The notes beneath the pieces were generated by a model that searched no databases, was not told the DNA's origin, and saw only the letters and a list, made by a program, of their open reading frames with translations. Source: Streptomyces purpureus (GTDB lineage: Bacteria > Actinomycetota > Actinomycetes > Streptomycetales > Streptomycetaceae). From it: a stretch of DNA of 64,000 nucleotides. The stretch spans positions 1 to 64,000 of the forward strand of contig NZ_BMQQ01000012.1 of NCBI RefSeq assembly GCF_014648195.1, given 5' to 3'. Positions 5,364 to 17,343 of the stretch are shown piece after piece (the stretch's first letter is position 1; every line of letters begins with the position of its first letter). Made by a program: the position numbers and the translations under genes.

Positions 5364-6203
5364 GTGCCAAAGACGAAAAAGGCGAAGCCGGGCAAAGAAG
5401 CCGTGAAGGCCATCAAGCCCCTCAAGACGCCCAAAAAGCCGGGCAAAACTCTCGAACAAGACGAGAAGGGTCTTGATTTTGCGCGTGCCTGGGTCGAGTT
5501 CCCGGACCCGGCCGACGACGAGCAGATCTTCCGCTGCGACCTGACGTGGCTCACCTCACGCTGGACGTGCATCTTCGGCAGCGGCTGCCAGGGGATCCAG
5601 GCCGGCCGGGCCGACGACGGCTGCTGCACGCTGGGCGCCCACTTCTCCGACGAGGACGACGAGCGGCGGGTCGCCTCGCACGTGGCGCGGCTCACGCCGG
5701 ACCTGTGGCAGTTCCACGACGTCGGCACGGCGAGCGGCTGGGTGCAGAAGGACGAGGACGGCGAGCGGCAGACCCGGCGCTGGGAGGGCTCGTGCATCTT
5801 CCAGAACCGGCCGGGCTTCAAGGGCGGCGCGGGCTGCTCGCTGCACATCCTGGCCCTCAACGAGGGCCGGGAGCCGCTGGAGACCAAGCCGGACGTGTGC
5901 TGGCAGCTGCCGGTGCGCCGGACGTACGACTGGATCGACCGCCCCGACGACAGCCGGGTGCTGCAGATCTCGATCGGTGAGTACGACCGGCGCGGCTGGG
6001 GCCCGGGCGGCCATGACCTGCACTGGTGGTGCACCTCGGCGACGTCCGCGCACGGCGCGGGTGAGCCGGTGTACGTGACCTACCGCCCCGAGCTGACGGA
6101 GCTGATGGGCAAGGAGGCGTACGAGGTGCTGGTGGGCCTGTGCGAGGCGCGGCTGGCGTCCCAGCTGCCGCTGGTCGCCCCGCACCCGGCCGACCCGCAC
6201 TGA
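5364..6203 (+). CDS. Cysteine-cluster protein of unknown function
   Basis: A 279-residue soluble protein. Residues 1-30 are a Lys/Pro-rich basic tail (KTKKAKPGK repeated in spirit). The body carries conserved cysteines: C-x5-C-x11-CC followed by a DEDDE acid run (about residues 70-100), plus CIFQ and GCSLH further on, then a Trp/His-rich HDLHWWC segment. The Cys spacing recalls metal- or Fe-S-binding DUF3109/YkgJ-like proteins, but I am not certain of the family. The GTG at 5364 follows TACGCT by 6 nt. I do not know the function; possible roles include a metal-dependent enzyme or a nucleic-acid-binding protein through the basic tail. Confidence 0.75.
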
Positions 6204-6338: not shown

Positions 6339-8078
6339 TCAGCTCGGTGAGGGCGGGGCTGTCGCCGGGTCGCTCGGGGGCACGCTCTGTGACGGCGTCG
6401 GGGTCGGGGTCGGCGAGGGGGGCTGCGACGACGGCGGCTGGGACGACGGTGGCGCGGTCGGCGGCTCGGAGGAGGGCGGCTGCGGCGAAGGCGGCGTGCT
6501 GGAGGGCGGCGCCGGCGCGCCGTGGCCGCCGATCTCGACGACCGCGCCCGCCGGCTCCACGCCCACCCGCCCGCTCCAGGGGCCGTGCGGTTCGCGCGCG
6601 TGGTCCACGGCGATGTGGATCGTCACGGACTCGCCGGGCCGCAGCGTGCCGGACGTCCGGCTCACGACGAGCCAGGGCGCGTCCGTCCACAGCGTCCAGA
6701 CGACCGGCTCACCGCCGGAGGCGGTGAGGGTGAGGACCGTCGCGCCGTCGGCCGGCTGCGCGGTGACCGTGAGCCGGCCGGGGCCGTGCCCGGGGCGGCC
6801 GGGCGGGGCGGGTGTGCCGGTGCTGATCACTTCCACGCCGACGTCCGGGGTTCGCCCGCCGGTGGTGAAGCGTGAGTCGGGCTTCGTACGGGCGTTGCCC
6901 GTGTTCTCGTAGTGCTCGGGCGGGCGGACGTCCATCCCGGCGGGCTCGTCCACCTCGCTCGCGGTGACCCGGGAGCCGCCCTGGGCCTCGCCGGTGAGCG
7001 GGGCGCCGCGATAGGCGGCCCACAGGGCGAGGACGGGCGCGGCGACGACGGCCGCGACGACGGTGGTGGTGACGGCGCGGGCCCGCAGCCGGTCGCGCCG
7101 GGCAGCGTGGTCCTTGGGGTCCATCGGGAAGCCGCCGGGCCCGAAGCGCGGGGCCCCGGCACGCGCGCGTGGTACGTGCAGCATCGCGACGTACGCGGCG
7201 GCCCTCGGCGCCTCGACGACCGGCAGCCGGGCCGGGGTGACGCTCGCGCCCGGCCAGGGGCCGCTCGCTCCGGCGCGTTCGGCGACCCGGCGGCAGCGCG
7301 GGCAGTCGTCGACGTGCCGGACGAGTTCGCGGCGCAGGGCGGCCGAGAGCAGGACCTGGTGGTCACCGGTGAGGCGGGCGACGGTGGCGCAGCTGCCGGT
7401 CTCGACGACGGCGAGCGCGGCGCGGGTGCGTTCCACCTCGCAGGCGGCGGAGGCGAGGAGGTCGCGGGCGGCGAGCGGGTCCAGGCCGAGGACGGCGGCG
7501 ACCTCCTTGGGGGCGAGCTGGTGTCGTACGGCCAGCTCCAGGGCCTCGCGCTGTTCGGGGGTGGTGCCGGCCGCCTCCGGCCAGGCGAGCAGGGCCAGTT
7601 CGGCGCGGCGGCGCTCGGCGGTCTCCTCGGAGACGGGGGGCTCGGTCGGCGGGACGACGGCGGGGCGGCCCGTGTGCGCGCCCTGGCGCTTGCGGCGCTG
7701 TTCGCCGAGGCTGCGCAGACAGGCCCAGCGGGCCAGCGCGTAGAGCCAGGCCTTCCGCTCGGCCTCGTCGGCGGGACATCGGCCGTGCTGGCGCTCGGCG
7801 ATGGCGAGGACGTCGCCGAGGACCGCGGTGGCCGTGTCGTGGTCACAGAGCACCGCGAGGCAGTACGTGAACAGTCCGTCGAGGTAAGGCTCGTAGCGGG
7901 AGGGCGGGCGCCGGCGGAGCGTCCGGGAGGCGGATCCCTCGGAAGAGGTGGTGGCGCCGGCGGGGGTGTCCGAGACGGACCGGGGCGCGCGCCGGTGCGC
8001 CCGGTGTGCGCCGGTGGTGTGGGTGGGGGGTTCCAGCCTGCTGCTCGTCACCCGGCGACGGTAGGCAAGGGAGAGCAT
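6339..8078 (-). CDS. ECF-sigma-like / zinc-finger / membrane / BACON-like fusion protein
   Basis: A 579-residue multidomain protein. Residues ~60-130 resemble ECF sigma region 2 (AWLYALARWACLRSLGEQRR); ~165-235 resemble region 4 (PEQREALELAVRHQLAPKEV). At ~255 there is an H-x3-C-x2-C motif (HVDDCPRCRR) as in zinc-binding anti-sigma factors. One membrane helix follows near 345 (VVAAVVAAPVLALWAAY), then an extracellular BACON-like Ig domain (WTDAPWLVVSRTSGTLRPGE) and a Pro/Ser/Thr-rich C-terminal tail. So sigma-like, anti-sigma-like, membrane and wall-facing parts are on one chain. It may be a tethered regulator or a degenerate sigma factor used only for signalling. The start at 8078 has a weak ribosome site (GAAGGG very close); an internal GTG (VTSSRLE) is possible. 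Confidence 0.75.
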   Translation of the reverse strand: MLSLAYRRRVTSSRLEPPTHTTGAHRAHRRAPRSVSDTPAGATTSSEGSASRTLRRRPPSRYEPYLDGLFTYCLAVLCDHDTATAVLGDVLAIAERQHGRCPADEAERKAWLYALARWACLRSLGEQRRKRQGAHTGRPAVVPPTEPPVSEETAERRRAELALLAWPEAAGTTPEQREALELAVRHQLAPKEVAAVLGLDPLAARDLLASAACEVERTRAALAVVETGSCATVARLTGDHQVLLSAALRRELVRHVDDCPRCRRVAERAGASGPWPGASVTPARLPVVEAPRAAAYVAMLHVPRARAGAPRFGPGGFPMDPKDHAARRDRLRARAVTTTVVAAVVAAPVLALWAAYRGAPLTGEAQGGSRVTASEVDEPAGMDVRPPEHYENTGNARTKPDSRFTTGGRTPDVGVEVISTGTPAPPGRPGHGPGRLTVTAQPADGATVLTLTASGGEPVVWTLWTDAPWLVVSRTSGTLRPGESVTIHIAVDHAREPHGPWSGRVGVEPAGAVVEIGGHGAPAPPSSTPPSPQPPSSEPPTAPPSSQPPSSQPPSPTPTPTPSQSVPPSDPATAPPSPS

Positions 8079-8227
8079 GCCCTTCGCGCGCCTTGCGTAC
8101 TTTTAATCCTTACGGGTGAACGTATCCCTCAAAAGGGGACACGGGGCGCCCTTCGCACGCCCCTGTGCGCCCCCCTGAACGGGCCGCGGCGGCGGCGTTG
8201 TCAGTGGGCACCGCTACGGTTTGGCGC

Positions 8228-9634
8228 ATGGCTGCCCGTACGAAATCCGCCAAGGACCGGCCGTCCTATCGCTGCACCGAGTGCGGCTGGACGACCGCCA
8301 AGTGGCTCGGCCGTTGCCCGGAGTGCCAGGCCTGGGGGACGGTCGAGGAGTACGGCGCGCCCGCCGTCCGTACGACCGCCGTGGGCCGGGTCTCCACCGC
8401 CGCGGTCCCCATCGCGCAGGTCGACGGGCGTCAGGCCACGGCCCGTACGACCGGAGTGGCCGAGCTGGACCGGGTCCTGGGCGGCGGACTCGTGCCCGGG
8501 GCGGTGGTGCTGCTCGCCGGCGAGCCGGGTGTCGGCAAGTCCACGCTGCTGCTGGACGTGGCGGCGAAGGCGGCCGGCGACGAGCACCGCACGCTCTATG
8601 TGACCGGCGAGGAGTCCGCGAGCCAGGTCCGGCTGCGCGCCGACCGGATCGGCGCGCTGAGCGATCATCTCTACCTGGCCGCCGAGACCGACCTCTCCGC
8701 GGTGCTGGGGCATCTGGACGCGGTCAAGCCGTCGCTGCTGATCCTGGACTCGGTGCAGACGGTGGCCTCTCCGGAGATCGACGGGGCGCCGGGCGGCATG
8801 GCGCAGGTGCGGGAGGTCGCCGGGGCGCTGATCCGGGCCTCCAAGGAGCGGGGCATGTCCACGCTGCTGGTCGGCCATGTCACCAAGGACGGGGCCATCG
8901 CCGGGCCGCGGCTGCTGGAGCATCTCGTCGATGTCGTGCTGCACTTCGAGGGCGACCGGCACGCGCGGCTGCGGCTGGTGCGCGGCGTCAAGAACCGCTA
9001 CGGCGCGACGGACGAGGTCGGCTGCTTCGAGCTGCACGACGAGGGGATCACCGGTCTCGCCGATCCCTCGGGGCTCTTCCTCACCCGTCGTGACGAGCCC
9101 GTGCCGGGCACCTGCCTGACGGTGACCCTGGAGGGCCGCCGGCCGCTGGTGGCCGAGGTGCAGGCGCTCACGGTCGATTCGCAGATCCCCTCGCCGCGGC
9201 GGACCACCTCGGGGCTCGAGACCTCCCGGGTCTCGATGATGCTGGCGGTCCTGGAGCAGCGCGGCCGGATCACCGCGCTCGGCAAGCGGGACATCTACAG
9301 CGCGACGGTGGGCGGGGTGAAGCTCTCCGAGCCCGCCGCCGATCTCGCCATCGCGCTGGCCCTGGCGTCCGCCGCGAGTGACACCCCGCTGCCGAAGAAC
9401 CTGGTCGCGATCGGCGAGGTGGGCCTCGCGGGCGAGGTGAGACGCGTCACGGGCGTGCAGCGGCGCCTCGCGGAGGCGCACCGCCTGGGCTTCACCCACG
9501 CCCTGGTGCCGGGCGATCCGGGGAAGGTCCCGGCGGGCATGAAGGTGCTCGAGGTGGCGGACATGGGGGACGCGCTGCGGGTGCTGCCGCGCAGCCGGCG
9601 GGCCCCCGCGCGGGAGGCGGACCCGCTCGGCTGA
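8228..9634 (+). CDS. radA: DNA repair protein RadA
   Basis: RadA (Sms) is a RecA-like helicase that drives branch migration during recombinational repair. The 468 residues show, in order, a C4 zinc finger (YRCTECGWTTAKWLGRCPEC), the Walker A loop GEPGVGKST, the RadA-specific KNRYG motif, and a C-terminal Lon-protease-like domain without protease use. The ATG at 8228 gives the standard N-terminus; TACGGT ends 7 nt upstream and no Shine-Dalgarno is present, so the mRNA may be leaderless. disA follows 126 bp downstream in the same direction, a conserved pairing in Gram-positives, where RadA and DisA act together at DNA intermediates. Confidence 0.96.
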   Translation: MAARTKSAKDRPSYRCTECGWTTAKWLGRCPECQAWGTVEEYGAPAVRTTAVGRVSTAAVPIAQVDGRQATARTTGVAELDRVLGGGLVPGAVVLLAGEPGVGKSTLLLDVAAKAAGDEHRTLYVTGEESASQVRLRADRIGALSDHLYLAAETDLSAVLGHLDAVKPSLLILDSVQTVASPEIDGAPGGMAQVREVAGALIRASKERGMSTLLVGHVTKDGAIAGPRLLEHLVDVVLHFEGDRHARLRLVRGVKNRYGATDEVGCFELHDEGITGLADPSGLFLTRRDEPVPGTCLTVTLEGRRPLVAEVQALTVDSQIPSPRRTTSGLETSRVSMMLAVLEQRGRITALGKRDIYSATVGGVKLSEPAADLAIALALASAASDTPLPKNLVAIGEVGLAGEVRRVTGVQRRLAEAHRLGFTHALVPGDPGKVPAGMKVLEVADMGDALRVLPRSRRAPAREADPLG

Positions 9635-14007: not shown

Positions 14008-14571
14008 ATGGCGCACGGCGAGGTGCTCGAGTTCGAAGAGTACGTACGCACGCGGCAGGAGGCCCTGCTGCGCAGCGCCCGGCGCCTCGTCCCCGACCCG
14101 GTGGACGCGCAGGACCTGCTCCAGACCGCGCTGGTTCGTACGTACGGCCGCTGGGACGGTATAGCGGACAAGTCGCTCGCGGACGCGTACCTTCGCCGGG
14201 TGATGATCAATACGCGCACCGAGTGGTGGCGCGCCCGCAAGCTGGAAGAGGTGCCCACCGAGCAGCTGCCCGACGCGAGCGTCGACGACGCCACCGAGCA
14301 GCACGCCGACCGCGCCCTGCTGATGGACGTGCTGAAGGTGCTCGCGCCGAAGCAGCGCAGCGTCGTGGTGCTGCGGCACTGGGAGCAGATGAGCACCGAG
14401 GAGACCGCCGCCGCGCTCGGAATGTCGACCGGTACGGTGAAGAGCACGCTCCACCGTGCGCTGGCGCGGCTACGCCAGGAACTGGAGAGCCGAGGCATCG
14501 ACGACGCCCGTGCTCTGGAGCGGTCCGGCGGACGACGTGACGAAGGGTGGCGGGAGCGGTGCGCGGCCTGA
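14008..14571 (+). CDS. sigE: ECF sigma factor SigE (cell-envelope stress)
   Basis: A 187-residue group IV sigma factor, nearly identical through the body to S. coelicolor SigE as I remember it (DPVDAQDLLQTALVRTYGRW in region 2; EETAAALGMSTGTVKSTLHR in region 4). It directs transcription of envelope-maintenance genes. Unlike most ECF factors it has no partner anti-sigma; control is at transcription by CseB/CseC, whose genes follow directly. The 235 bp upstream (13773-14007) have an AT-richer patch with TGTTACACAACC around 13880, where the CseB-controlled promoter would be expected, but I cannot pin the site. Confidence 0.96.
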   Translation: MAHGEVLEFEEYVRTRQEALLRSARRLVPDPVDAQDLLQTALVRTYGRWDGIADKSLADAYLRRVMINTRTEWWRARKLEEVPTEQLPDASVDDATEQHADRALLMDVLKVLAPKQRSVVVLRHWEQMSTEETAAALGMSTGTVKSTLHRALARLRQELESRGIDDARALERSGGRRDEGWRERCAA

Positions 14572-15263
14572 GGGCCAGACACGACATCGACGGCGCGCGC
14601 CACGACGCGCGCCGTTTCGGCGGCATCGGGGCGGCGAGCACCACGGCAGTGGCCGGGCTCGTCGCCGTCGGCGTGTTCGTGGTCGGCTGTTCGACCGGTG
14701 GTACGGGCTCCCGTGACGAGGGCGCGGCCTCCCGGCCCGACCAGACCTCGCCGACGGCGGCCGTCCCGTCCGCGCCCGCGTCCTCCACGGCCCACTTCAA
14801 GAAGGTCGACGCGGCCCGGCTGATCAAGTCCGACCCCAAGGTGAGCGACCAGGTCAAGGCCGACCTGAAGCCGTGCGTGAAGAACATCTACCCCGTGGAC
14901 ACCTCCTACGGGAACCTGACCGGCGGGCCCGCGCCCGACGTCATAGTGAACGTGATGACCTGCGGTGACGCGGTCGGCATCGGCACGTACGTGTACCGCG
15001 AGGAGGGCGGCGAGTACAGGAACGTGTTCGCCACCGAGGACGCGGCGGTGTACGCGACGATCGACCGGGGCGATCTGGTGGTGACCAAGCAGGTGTACGC
15101 CAAGGGGGATCCGGTGGCGTACCCCTCCGGCGAGGACGTGATCACGTACCGCTGGTCGGGGAGCAAGTTCACCCAGCACGACTGGGTGCACAACGACTAC
15201 AGCAAAGCGGTCGGCGACGGAGGCATCGACAGCCCGTCGACGGCCGCACCGAGCGAGAACTGA
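14559..15263 (+). CDS. cseA: CseA lipoprotein, negative modulator of the SigE system
   Basis: A 234-residue lipoprotein. After a basic start and hydrophobic stretch (TTAVAGLVAVGVFVVGC) the lipobox VVGC places the lipidated Cys at about residue 44, and a Ser/Thr/Pro linker leads to a soluble domain containing two Cys (KPCVKN, MTCGDA). In S. coelicolor CseA is extracytoplasmic and dampens CseC signalling. The start overlaps the sigE stop: GTG at 14559 (GGGAG just upstream) or GTG at 14547 are both possible. Overlap implies coupling with sigE. cseB follows after 9 bp. Confidence 0.9.
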   Translation: MRGLRARHDIDGARHDARRFGGIGAASTTAVAGLVAVGVFVVGCSTGGTGSRDEGAASRPDQTSPTAAVPSAPASSTAHFKKVDAARLIKSDPKVSDQVKADLKPCVKNIYPVDTSYGNLTGGPAPDVIVNVMTCGDAVGIGTYVYREEGGEYRNVFATEDAAVYATIDRGDLVVTKQVYAKGDPVAYPSGEDVITYRWSGSKFTQHDWVHNDYSKAVGDGGIDSPSTAAPSEN

Positions 15264-15272
15264 GAGCGCGCG

Positions 15273-15977
15273 ATGGCCGAGACCCATGTGCTGTTCGTCG
15301 AGGACGACGACGTCATCCGGGAAGCCACCCAGCTGGCGCTGGAGCGGGACGGCTTCGCGGTGACCGCGATGCCGGACGGGCTGTCCGGGCTGGAGGCGTT
15401 CCGCGAGCGGCAGCCCGACATCGCCCTCCTGGACGTGATGCTGCCGGGCATGGACGGGGTCAGCCTGTGCCGCCGGATCCGTGACGAGTCGACCGTGCCG
15501 GTGATCATGCTGTCGGCGCGCGCCGACTCCATCGACGTGGTCCTCGGTCTGGAGGCGGGCGCCGACGACTATGTCACCAAGCCCTTCGACGGGTCGGTGC
15601 TCGTCGCGCGGATCCGGGCAGTGCTGCGCCGCTTCGGCCACGCCGGCGGGCCGGCGGCCGGCGGCGACGGGCAGGGGGCCTCGGACGAGCGCGGGGTGCT
15701 GGTCTTCGGCGACCTGGAGGTCGACACCGAGGGCATGGAGGTCCGCAGGGGCGGCGCGCCGGTGGCGCTGACGCCGACCGAGATGCGGCTGCTGCTGGAG
15801 TTCTCGGCGTCCCCGGGCACCGTCCTGTCGCGTGACCGGCTGCTTGAGCGGGTGTGGGACTACGGCTGGGGCGGCGACACCCGGGTGGTGGACGTCCATG
15901 TCCAGCGGCTGCGGACGAAGATCGGGCAGGACCGGATCGAGACGGTCCGCGGCTTCGGATACAAGCTCAAGCCATGA
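15273..15977 (+). CDS. cseB: Response regulator CseB
   Basis: A 234-residue OmpR/PhoB-type regulator. The receiver has the acid pair in VEDDDVIRE, phospho-accepting Asp54 in LLDVMLPGMDG, and Lys in DDYVTKPFDG; the winged helix is at the C-terminus (TPTEMRLLLEF through VVDVHVQRLRTKIG). Phosphorylated by CseC, it activates the sigE promoter, so the operon is self-amplifying in response to wall damage. Confidence 0.96.
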   Translation: MAETHVLFVEDDDVIREATQLALERDGFAVTAMPDGLSGLEAFRERQPDIALLDVMLPGMDGVSLCRRIRDESTVPVIMLSARADSIDVVLGLEAGADDYVTKPFDGSVLVARIRAVLRRFGHAGGPAAGGDGQGASDERGVLVFGDLEVDTEGMEVRRGGAPVALTPTEMRLLLEFSASPGTVLSRDRLLERVWDYGWGGDTRVVDVHVQRLRTKIGQDRIETVRGFGYKLKP

Positions 15978-16029
15978 CCCCGACCCATGACCCCGCTCCC
16001 CCGGGACCCGCGGCCATAGGACTGGACGG

Positions 16030-17343
16030 ATGAGGCGGTTCGCGCTCCGGACGGGCGTCCGCTGGAAGATCTCGATCGCGATCGCCGCGGTGGGCGCGCT
16101 GATCGCGGTGGCGCTCAGCCTGGTCGTGCACAACGCGGCGCGCGTCTCGATGCTGGAGAACGCGCGCGAGGTGCAGATGGAGCGGCTGCTCTTCGCGCAG
16201 CGGATGTACGAGTCCGCCAAGCCCAAGGAGCCCCGCTTCGGGACCAAGCTCAACGACCCGATGCTGCCGCCCGAGCTCGGCGAGCTCATGCGCGACCAGC
16301 GGCGCGGCACCTTCGTGCAGGAGCACGGCGACGGCGGTCCGCCGGACGTGTGGGCGGCGGTGCCGCTGGCCAACGGCGACATCCTGTCCCTGCACATCCC
16401 CTTCGCCGACCGCAGCGCCAAGATCATGGCCGATCTGGACCGGGCCCTGATCATCGGCTCGGTGACGGTCGTCTTCGGCGGCTGCGCGCTCGGTGTGCTC
16501 ATCGGCGGTCAGCTCTCCCGCCGGCTGCGCAAGGCCGCGGCGGCGGCCGGGAAGGTCGCGCAGGGCAATACGGACGTACGGGTCCGCAACGCCATCGGCG
16601 GCGTCGTGCGGGACGAGACGGACGAGCTGGCGCGGGCGGTCGACGCCCTCACCGACGCGCTGCACGAGCGGATCGAGGCGGAGCGCCGGGTCACCGCTGA
16701 CATCGCGCACGAGCTGCGGACGCCGGTGACCGGGCTGCTCACGGCCGCCGAACTGCTGCCGCCTGGCCGGCCCACCGAGCTCGTACGGGACAGGGCGCAG
16801 GCGATGCGGACGCTCGTCGAGGACGTGCTGGAGGTCGCCCGGCTGGACGGGGCGTCCGAGCGGGCGGAGCTTCAGGAGATCGCGCTGGGCGAGTTCGTCG
16901 AGCGGCGGGTGCGGGCGCTGAACCCGGAGACGGTGGTCCATGTGGTCCACGAGTCGTGGGTGAACACCGATCCGCGCCGTCTGGAGCGGATCCTGGGCAA
17001 TCTGCTCGCCAATGCCGCCAAGCACGGTAAGCCGCCGGTGGAGGTCACCGTCGAGGGCCGGGTCGTACGGGTCCGTGATCACGGCCCGGGGTTCCCGGAG
17101 GCGCTGCTGCGGGAGGGTCCGAGCCGGTTCCGTACGGGCGCGAGCGACCGGGCCGGGCACGGGCACGGTCTTGGTCTGACGATCGCGGCGGGGCAGGCGC
17201 GGGTGCTGGGGGCGCGGCTGACGTTCCGCAACGCGGCGCCGGAGGGAGCGGAGAGGTCCGGCGGGGCGATCGCGGTCCTGTGGCTGCCGGACCACGCGCC
17301 GACGAACACGGGCAGCTTTCCGATGATCCAGTTCCCGGAGTAG
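16030..17343 (+). CDS. cseC: Sensor histidine kinase CseC
   Basis: A 437-residue membrane kinase. Two helices (about residues 12-38 and 140-160) flank a ~100-residue extracytoplasmic sensor; HAMP follows (SRRLRKAAAAAGKVAQGNTD), then HisKA with His227 in DIAHELRTPVTGLL, and an HATPase domain (NLLANAAKHG, VRDHGPGFPEA, GHGLGLTIA). It detects cell-envelope damage and phosphorylates CseB. The ATG is 52 bp after the cseB stop; a strong hairpin terminates the operon at 17362-17397. Confidence 0.95.
   Translation: MRRFALRTGVRWKISIAIAAVGALIAVALSLVVHNAARVSMLENAREVQMERLLFAQRMYESAKPKEPRFGTKLNDPMLPPELGELMRDQRRGTFVQEHGDGGPPDVWAAVPLANGDILSLHIPFADRSAKIMADLDRALIIGSVTVVFGGCALGVLIGGQLSRRLRKAAAAAGKVAQGNTDVRVRNAIGGVVRDETDELARAVDALTDALHERIEAERRVTADIAHELRTPVTGLLTAAELLPPGRPTELVRDRAQAMRTLVEDVLEVARLDGASERAELQEIALGEFVERRVRALNPETVVHVVHESWVNTDPRRLERILGNLLANAAKHGKPPVEVTVEGRVVRVRDHGPGFPEALLREGPSRFRTGASDRAGHGHGLGLTIAAGQARVLGARLTFRNAAPEGAERSGGAIAVLWLPDHAPTNTGSFPMIQFPE

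Follow-up and report, generated by a model that had tools for sequence, protein, structure and literature searches.

The window analysed here is a stretch of 64,000 nucleotides from Streptomyces purpureus (contig NZ_BMQQ01000012.1). On its reverse strand lies an open reading frame (ORF) of 579 residues (6339-8078) that is open throughout, and is the sole match of its own protein in its own genome. Related stretches encode a relative in 523 cases, and the best 80 of these 523 (79 titled Streptomyces and one titled Microtetraspora) were aligned with the window protein (n = 81). A pseudogene was rejected, as the ORF is both open and conserved, and it is confirmed as a genuine gene. The preliminary description had taken the whole ORF, and its start needs revision. 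Because a Val or Met at residue 10 is a conserved GTG or ATG start across the 81 aligned sequences, and the reading upstream of it has no common start codon, the true start is probably the GTG at 8051, nine codons inside the ORF start at 8078. This gives a coding region at 6342..8051 (reverse strand, 570 aa), with the stop codon at 6339-6341.

The gene is divergent from radA (8228..9634, forward strand), which is its neighbour in 80/80 loci scanned; in other Streptomycetaceae genera the same holds for 20/20 loci. The intergenic region common to both genes holds a strongly conserved non-coding block, TGTCCCCTTTTGAGGGATACGTTCACCCGTAAGGATTAAA (8102..8141, reverse strand), 51-90 nt before the start. 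Among seven loci inspected by eye, six have a GGAA(T/C)-N5-(A/G)TTCC palindrome upstream of this block, which was not seen in the window. On the other side, a Cys-rich ORF (5478-6203, forward strand) is convergent with the fusion gene and has no Pfam match at E 0.001. Some 6 kb away, at 14008-17343 on the forward strand, an ECF sigma factor, an ORF without a Pfam match, a response regulator and a HAMP histidine kinase are consecutive; by its gene order this cluster is probably the sigE-cseABC envelope stress operon.

The encoded chain has a sigma2-like domain (residues 62-132; 7683..7895), a variable linker (133-159), a sigma4-like domain (160-228; 7395..7601), a zinc anti-sigma (ZAS) domain (229-268; 7275..7394), a conserved juxtamembrane segment (275-336; 7071..7256), a transmembrane (TM) helix (about 335-355; 7014..7076), a variable stretch, a BACON_2/Ig-like extracytoplasmic domain (about 433-520; 6519..6782) and a Pro/Ser/Thr-rich C-terminal tail (521-579; 6342..6518), all on the reverse strand. 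Hydropathy peaks above 1.6 at the TM helix and nowhere else in the chain, and the AlphaFold (AF2) helix over this segment spans residues 321-356. The juxtamembrane segment reads WPG...RFxxxGFPMDPKDxAARRDRLRAR and is invariant at 16 of 62 positions, compared with 31 of 69 across 81 sequences in the sigma4-like domain. As the basic residues RRDRLRAR precede the membrane helix, the sequence suggests that the N-terminus is inside the cell. In the tail, 47 of 59 residues are Pro, Ser or Thr. The one-chain layout of a sigma-like part, a ZAS, one TM helix and an outside domain, as first described, is thus supported by the sequence, by Pfam and NCBIfam matches and by AlphaFold.

In the outside domain, the Pfam model BACON_2 (PF19190) matches residues 433-499 (E 1.5e-7, 31.7 bits, cut-off 25), in agreement with the BACON-like domain originally reported; at E<=0.1 the model is found in all 52 homologs. 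The preliminary description called this outside part wall-binding, which the analysis does not support. The predicted structure shows an Ig fold of the BACON/HYDIN/MSP-like kind here, and among solved structures its closest relatives come from GH115 enzymes, as domains of these proteins (Z 10.9 to 4zmh and 10.1 to 6nps). The fold is what they have in common; the window protein carries no enzyme part.

We regard the sigma ancestry of the N-terminal part as secure, although the window protein itself lies below every curated sigma cut-off. It has no match to Pfam Sigma70_r2, and its match to Sigma70_r4_2 is weak (E 0.095, 12.8 bits against a cut-off of 25.7). NCBIfam sigma-factor models span its sigma2 to sigma4 region with E values down to 8.4e-5, all under their cut-offs. 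Among 52 homologs, PRK12513 matches 49 at E <= 0.01, PRK08241 gives the best E of any sigma model (9.6e-9), and at E<=0.1 Sigma70_r2 matches 4 (best 0.015) and Sigma70_r4_2 matches 36 (best 0.00064). The preliminary description had staked its sigma claim on such a match, and the "no match" outcome did not arise. No sigma model reached the Pfam cut-off in the four Streptomycetaceae orthologs scanned (the window protein, L165, L171 and L176).

The gap to recognised sigma factors is closed by sequence intermediates, one-chain fusions from other Actinobacteria that bridge the window protein to sigma factors of Pfam level. Beyond the genus, 69 genomes gave some match, often to a single domain, and regions from 20 of these genomes yielded 23 such distant fusions; radA was seen in 2 of the 20 regions. 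Two distant fusions beside radA and disA in two other families, L142 and L159, score above the Pfam threshold of Sigma70_r2 (42.4 and 54.5 bits, cut-off 24) as well as that of Sigma70_r4_2 (29.8 and 26.1 bits, cut-off 25.7).

The predicted fold agrees. AlphaFold models were made for residues 58-522 (pLDDT 73.7) and 58-277 (pLDDT 80.3, pTM 0.75) from shallow input alignments, with 64-79% identity to the window protein in one (A1) and 72-86% in the other (A3). The structures matched include the ECF sigma factors of RpoE:NepR (Z 11.5-11.8), CnrH:CnrY (11.0-11.1) and SigW:RsiW (10.6-10.8), with PhyR entries reaching 9.9. These sigma-fold Z scores of 8-12 are under the 13 advised for helical bundles, and the assignment leans also on the sequence matches and the intermediates. 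Foldseek at E<=0.001 returned no match for the sigma-ZAS model and four for the long model, all of them GH115. Homology to the sigma2 to sigma4 region of ECF sigma factors is therefore found in both sequence and fold, without the curated Sigma70 r2 and r4 cut-offs being reached.

The gene is nearly universal in its family. In a profile search 148 of 150 Streptomycetaceae genomes had a match, covering all 17 genera (family being judged from named loci); this count includes any profile match, and the position at radA was checked at 20 loci of the other genera. The two genomes without a match are G426 and G456, and a third (G407) matches weakly (E 2.9e-21). No match was found among 72,556 plasmid records at E 1e-5. 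A paralog sits between the gene and radA in 3 of the 20 loci of other genera; in L165 (1202-3208, forward), L166 (3-3179, forward) and L167 (reverse strand), it is a second, diverged sigma-ZAS-TM-BACON fusion. A contig titled Microtetraspora glauca (L038) encodes a 68% identical protein beside radA in a Streptomyces-like locus, and its title may be wrong. As SCO3351 is RadA in S. coelicolor (PMC3897704, in excerpt), the ortholog in that species is presumably SCO3350.

In a tree of 60 sigma-ZAS rows, rooted at its midpoint, the Streptomycetaceae proteins of the radA locus group into a single clade of 32 rows (support 100/100). The sister group, with 14 rows, comprises 11 distant fusions and the 3 paralogs, whereas L142 and the other fusions with an intact sigma part branch outside both groups (fork 99/96). 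Two fusions from the own genome are long branches and their placement is unsure.

Which residues of the sigma part have been kept? We compared contact positions in 30 sigma70-family domains of the own genome, the 23 distant fusions and the 81 Streptomyces-type sequences; other Streptomycetaceae genera supplied a further 20 orthologs, together with 3 neighbouring paralogs. The controls were the best 30 of 45 own-genome sigma70-family domains above the cut-off, with non-ECF members included; one row (L109) was empty and another (L099) was cut. The Asp and Gln of region 2.2 are contact positions for core RNA polymerase (RNAP), as established for sigma70. The Asp (position 85) is present in 28/28 controls, 13/23 distant fusions, 1/20 of the other Streptomycetaceae and 0/81 Streptomyces sequences, and the Gln (position 88) in 26/28, 9/23, 0/20 and 0/81, respectively.

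The positions expected to read the promoter are changed as well. In sigmaH, N88 reads the -10 element and R186 the -35 element, and core contacts are said in general terms to be conserved among sigma factors (PMC6411747, in excerpt). The counterpart of N88, position 118, is Trp in 81/81 Streptomyces sequences and Tyr, His or Trp in 18/20 of the other Streptomycetaceae. At position 210 (R186 of sigmaH), Lys or Arg is found in 25/29 controls, 15/23 distant fusions, 3/20 other Streptomycetaceae and 0/81 Streptomyces sequences. Position 207 (R183 of sigmaH) is Leu in 80/81 Streptomyces sequences, but Leu or Met also occupies it in 17/23 distant fusions. Altogether D85, Q88, N118, R210 and R212 are lost together in 81/81 Streptomyces sequences; D85, Q88 and K/R210 are jointly absent in all 81, and no usable control row lacks all three. 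The pairing of region 2.2 Asp and Gln with a -35-contact Arg, usual for an ECF sigma factor, is found in 0/81. The recognition helix has a median net charge of +2 both in the controls and in the distant fusions. For the three paralogs this value is +4, for the 20 orthologs -0.5 and for the Streptomyces sequences 0. In contrast, W111 (W81 of sigmaH) and Y113 (Y83) are kept, each in 81/81. Thus the inside part is sigma-like by homology to ECF factors, as the preliminary description held, while its working as a promoter factor is doubtful, because the positions that contact RNAP and the -10 and -35 DNA are changed in 81/81 Streptomyces sequences.

These losses appear to be of different ages. D85 is absent in 13 and Q88 in all 14 rows of the sister group, several of which keep Lys or Arg at 210 and 212. 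As the sister group also lacks D85 and Q88, the sequence comparison indicates that their loss predates the Streptomycetaceae. It is within this family that the aromatic character of position 118 and the losses at 210 and 212 are most pronounced.

The ZAS domain has, by comparison, kept all its zinc ligands. The preliminary description had noticed its H-x3-C-x2-C motif; H255, C259 and C262 are indeed kept in 81/81, and a fourth zinc ligand that had been missed, C230, completes the pattern C-x24-H-x3-C-x2-C. This agrees with the ZAS definition of H-x3-C-x2-C plus a fourth Cys or His ligand (PMC4598750, in excerpt). All four ligands are conserved in 81/81 Streptomyces sequences, 20/20 other Streptomycetaceae, 23/23 distant fusions and 3/3 paralogs (127/127 in total). 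The C-x24-H spacing holds in 74/81 Streptomyces sequences and varies from 21 to 33 residues in other genera. At E<=0.1 the zf-HC2 model picks out 29 of the 52 homologs, with a best E of 0.01, and the window protein scores 14.0 bits against a cut-off of 22.2. Within Streptomyces, mean pairwise identity is 0.84 for sigma4, 0.83 for the ZAS and 0.59 for the BACON part. Since sigma4 and the ZAS are the best-conserved soluble parts, the putative pseudo-sigma does not appear, from its sequence conservation, to be drifting.

The model is closed. It superposes on NepR-, CnrY- and RsiW-bound sigma factors and on those PhyR entries that rank in the nine best rows with rmsd values of 3.6-5.0 Å over 118-145 residues, compared with about 26-27 Å for RNAP-bound sigmaH. 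This anti-sigma-bound-like shape suggests an in-cis clamp of the ZAS on the pseudo-sigma; the ZAS region itself lies outside the coverage of the fold matches. Three further complexes (sigmaE:RseA, AlgU:MucA and BldN:RsbN) align to the model over sigma2 only.

One-chain sensors of this general kind are already known. ECF48, ECF52 and ECF53 are sigma-ZAS-TM fusions of Actinobacteria for which proteolytic activation is expected, and IutY is the tested case (PMC8999054, in excerpt). The idea of a one-piece envelope sensor, which the preliminary description drew from the layout, therefore fits the layout but is in print for ECF48/52/53 in that source. The likeness to ECF48 and ECF53 is drawn only from its description of their sigma-ZAS-TM fusion layout. 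IutY (ECF243, Pseudomonas putida) likewise joins a sigma factor to a membrane-bound anti-sigma factor and is released by proteolysis (PMC8999054, in excerpt), but unlike the window protein it is a working iron-starvation sigma factor in a cell-surface signalling system.

ECF52, described as exclusive to Actinobacteria (PMC5826349 and PMC8999054, both in excerpt), has a similar plan. Its S. coelicolor member, SCO4117, affects gene expression and transcription (PMC5826349, in excerpt) and, like the window protein, joins an N-terminal sigma part, a ZAS/zf-HC2, one TM helix, a Pro-rich stretch and an outside domain in one chain. ECF52 ends, however, in a carbohydrate-binding domain after the Pro-rich part and adjoins atrA (PMC5826349, in excerpt), whereas the window protein has BACON_2 followed by a Pro-rich C-terminal tail and lies at the radA locus. 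The own genome has a separate ECF52-like gene (L184, reverse strand) that keeps D85 and R210/R212, which the window protein has lost, and has G at 88 and R at 118. Identity with ECF52 was therefore rejected, since the two differ in outside domain, in order of domains and in locus, and L184 is present besides. L184 is a sigma-ZAS-TM-Pro-rich protein whose end looks NPCBM-type by eye, and its region 2.2 reads DDLTGEVF. L110 (own genome, reverse strand) is a further sigma-ZAS-TM fusion in one chain; it has a Pro-rich stretch and, judged by eye, a CAP/SCP-like outside domain, and it keeps the usual sigma residues.

PhyR, a sigma mimic that serves as anti-anti-sigma factor in the general stress response of alphaproteobacteria, offers a comparison of another kind. 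Its sigma2-sigma4 fold binds an anti-sigma factor and not promoters (PMC4598750, in excerpt), and most PhyR entries align to the window model with Z 7.3-9.9. NepR is the protein that PhyR binds, and PhyR carries a receiver domain, whereas the window protein is membrane-anchored and has a ZAS. Membership was rejected because no receiver domain was matched in Pfam; a PhyR-like way of working is conceivable, not an identity.

We propose that the window protein is a membrane-anchored sigma mimic that is clamped by its own ZAS and relays an envelope signal by protein-protein switching, a reading to which we give a probability of about one half. It would have arisen from a fused ECF sigma/anti-sigma sensor of the ECF48/52/53-type layout, whose sigma part became a pseudo-sigma. 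The ZAS would hold the pseudo-sigma in cis, and the outside domain would feel a signal upon which proteolysis or a conformational change opens or frees the pseudo-sigma-ZAS pair. The exposed pseudo-sigma may then titrate another anti-sigma factor, or the freed ZAS may inhibit another sigma factor; the pseudo-sigma part itself would not start transcription. Protein-protein switching is the simplest output because the core and promoter residues are changed. The joint residue loss, Trp at 118, the Pfam-level sigma matches of L142 and L159 set against none in the four Streptomycetaceae orthologs scanned, the position in the tree, the conservation of sigma4 and ZAS, the presence in 148/150 genomes and the closed model all point this way. 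A receptor-type mimic, in which a ZAS-masked pseudo-sigma is exposed by the envelope signal and titrates an anti-sigma factor in trans, or the freed ZAS inhibits, for example, the neighbouring SigE-like sigma factor, is a tentative and rather doubtful proposal. If true, it would be a PhyR-like partner switch in one transmembrane chain and a core regulator of nearly all Streptomycetaceae.

Several observations count against a mimic. L184 has G88 and R118, and in S. coelicolor its counterpart has an effect on transcription (PMC5826349, in excerpt), so neither the Q88 nor the N118 change alone is disabling; L142 likewise has His at 88 yet passes Pfam. The sister group has also lost D85 and Q88, and positions 85 and 88 may simply matter less in this lineage. 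Lys or Arg at 210 persists in 3/20 of the other Streptomycetaceae. The closed shape also fits SigG1 (3.7 Å) and SigJ (3.0 Å), whose structure titles name no anti-sigma factor, while SigK with its anti-sigma factor fits worse (8.6 Å). Nor is loss of the recognition-helix Arg a signature of mimicry, as PhyR rows show both its loss (2lfw) and its retention (R-x-R in 9by5).

The protein could instead be a divergent but working ECF sigma factor, fused to its anti-sigma factor, held at the membrane and freed by regulated intramembrane proteolysis, a route put forward for ECF52/SCO4117 and demonstrated in IutY; we regard this as a serious, if somewhat less than likely, reading. It accounts for a domain order (sigma-ZAS-TM-outside) that is the same as in ECF48/52/53 (PMC8999054, in excerpt), for the matching of sigma models along sigma2 to sigma4, for the invariance of W111 and Y113, as in a working -10 pocket, and for the same-locus orthologs in two other families with Pfam-level sigma2 and sigma4. 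L184 also lacks the region 2.2 Gln, though it keeps the Asp and both Arg. It is harder to reconcile with the joint loss of five contact residues in every Streptomyces sequence, with a recognition helix of median charge 0 against +2 in controls, and with a sigma2 part that Pfam does not recognise in the window protein.

That the inside part is a structural or localisation module only, which might for instance tether a complex to the membrane and take no part in sigma signalling, seems improbable. Loss of the sigma contact residues would suit such a module, and a near-universal gene beside radA-disA could serve housekeeping, but the zinc ligands are kept in every fusion compared and sigma4 and the ZAS are the most conserved soluble parts, as for a maintained interface of the sigma/anti-sigma type. 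A chance resemblance, in which the N-terminus is an ordinary helical domain of no sigma ancestry, is very unlikely: the window protein does fall under every curated sigma cut-off, but homology is clear through the intermediate fusions that pass them and the structure comparison gives the ECF fold.

Set against the known sensors (ECF48, ECF52, ECF53 and SCO4117), what appears from the sequences to be new is the near-universal presence in the family, the radA-divergent locus in 100/100 loci checked, the BACON version and the putative pseudo-sigma state. A literature search, which covered few subscription papers, found no paper on SCO3350, nor a description of the pseudo-sigma state, of a BACON-bearing form or of the radA locus. 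Should the sigma part prove a mimic, it would represent a new coupling of envelope to sigma factors, in which a fused sigma/anti-sigma sensor evolved into a switch made of protein contacts only; should it prove a working sigma factor, the range of what counts as one widens. The gene's place in the radA-disA region, 6 kb from the SigE/Cse-like operon, makes a purely positional link to c-di-AMP and envelope stress. Finally, three cysteines (C73, C120 and C213) are each invariant in 81/81, and redox sensing through them may be a further role.
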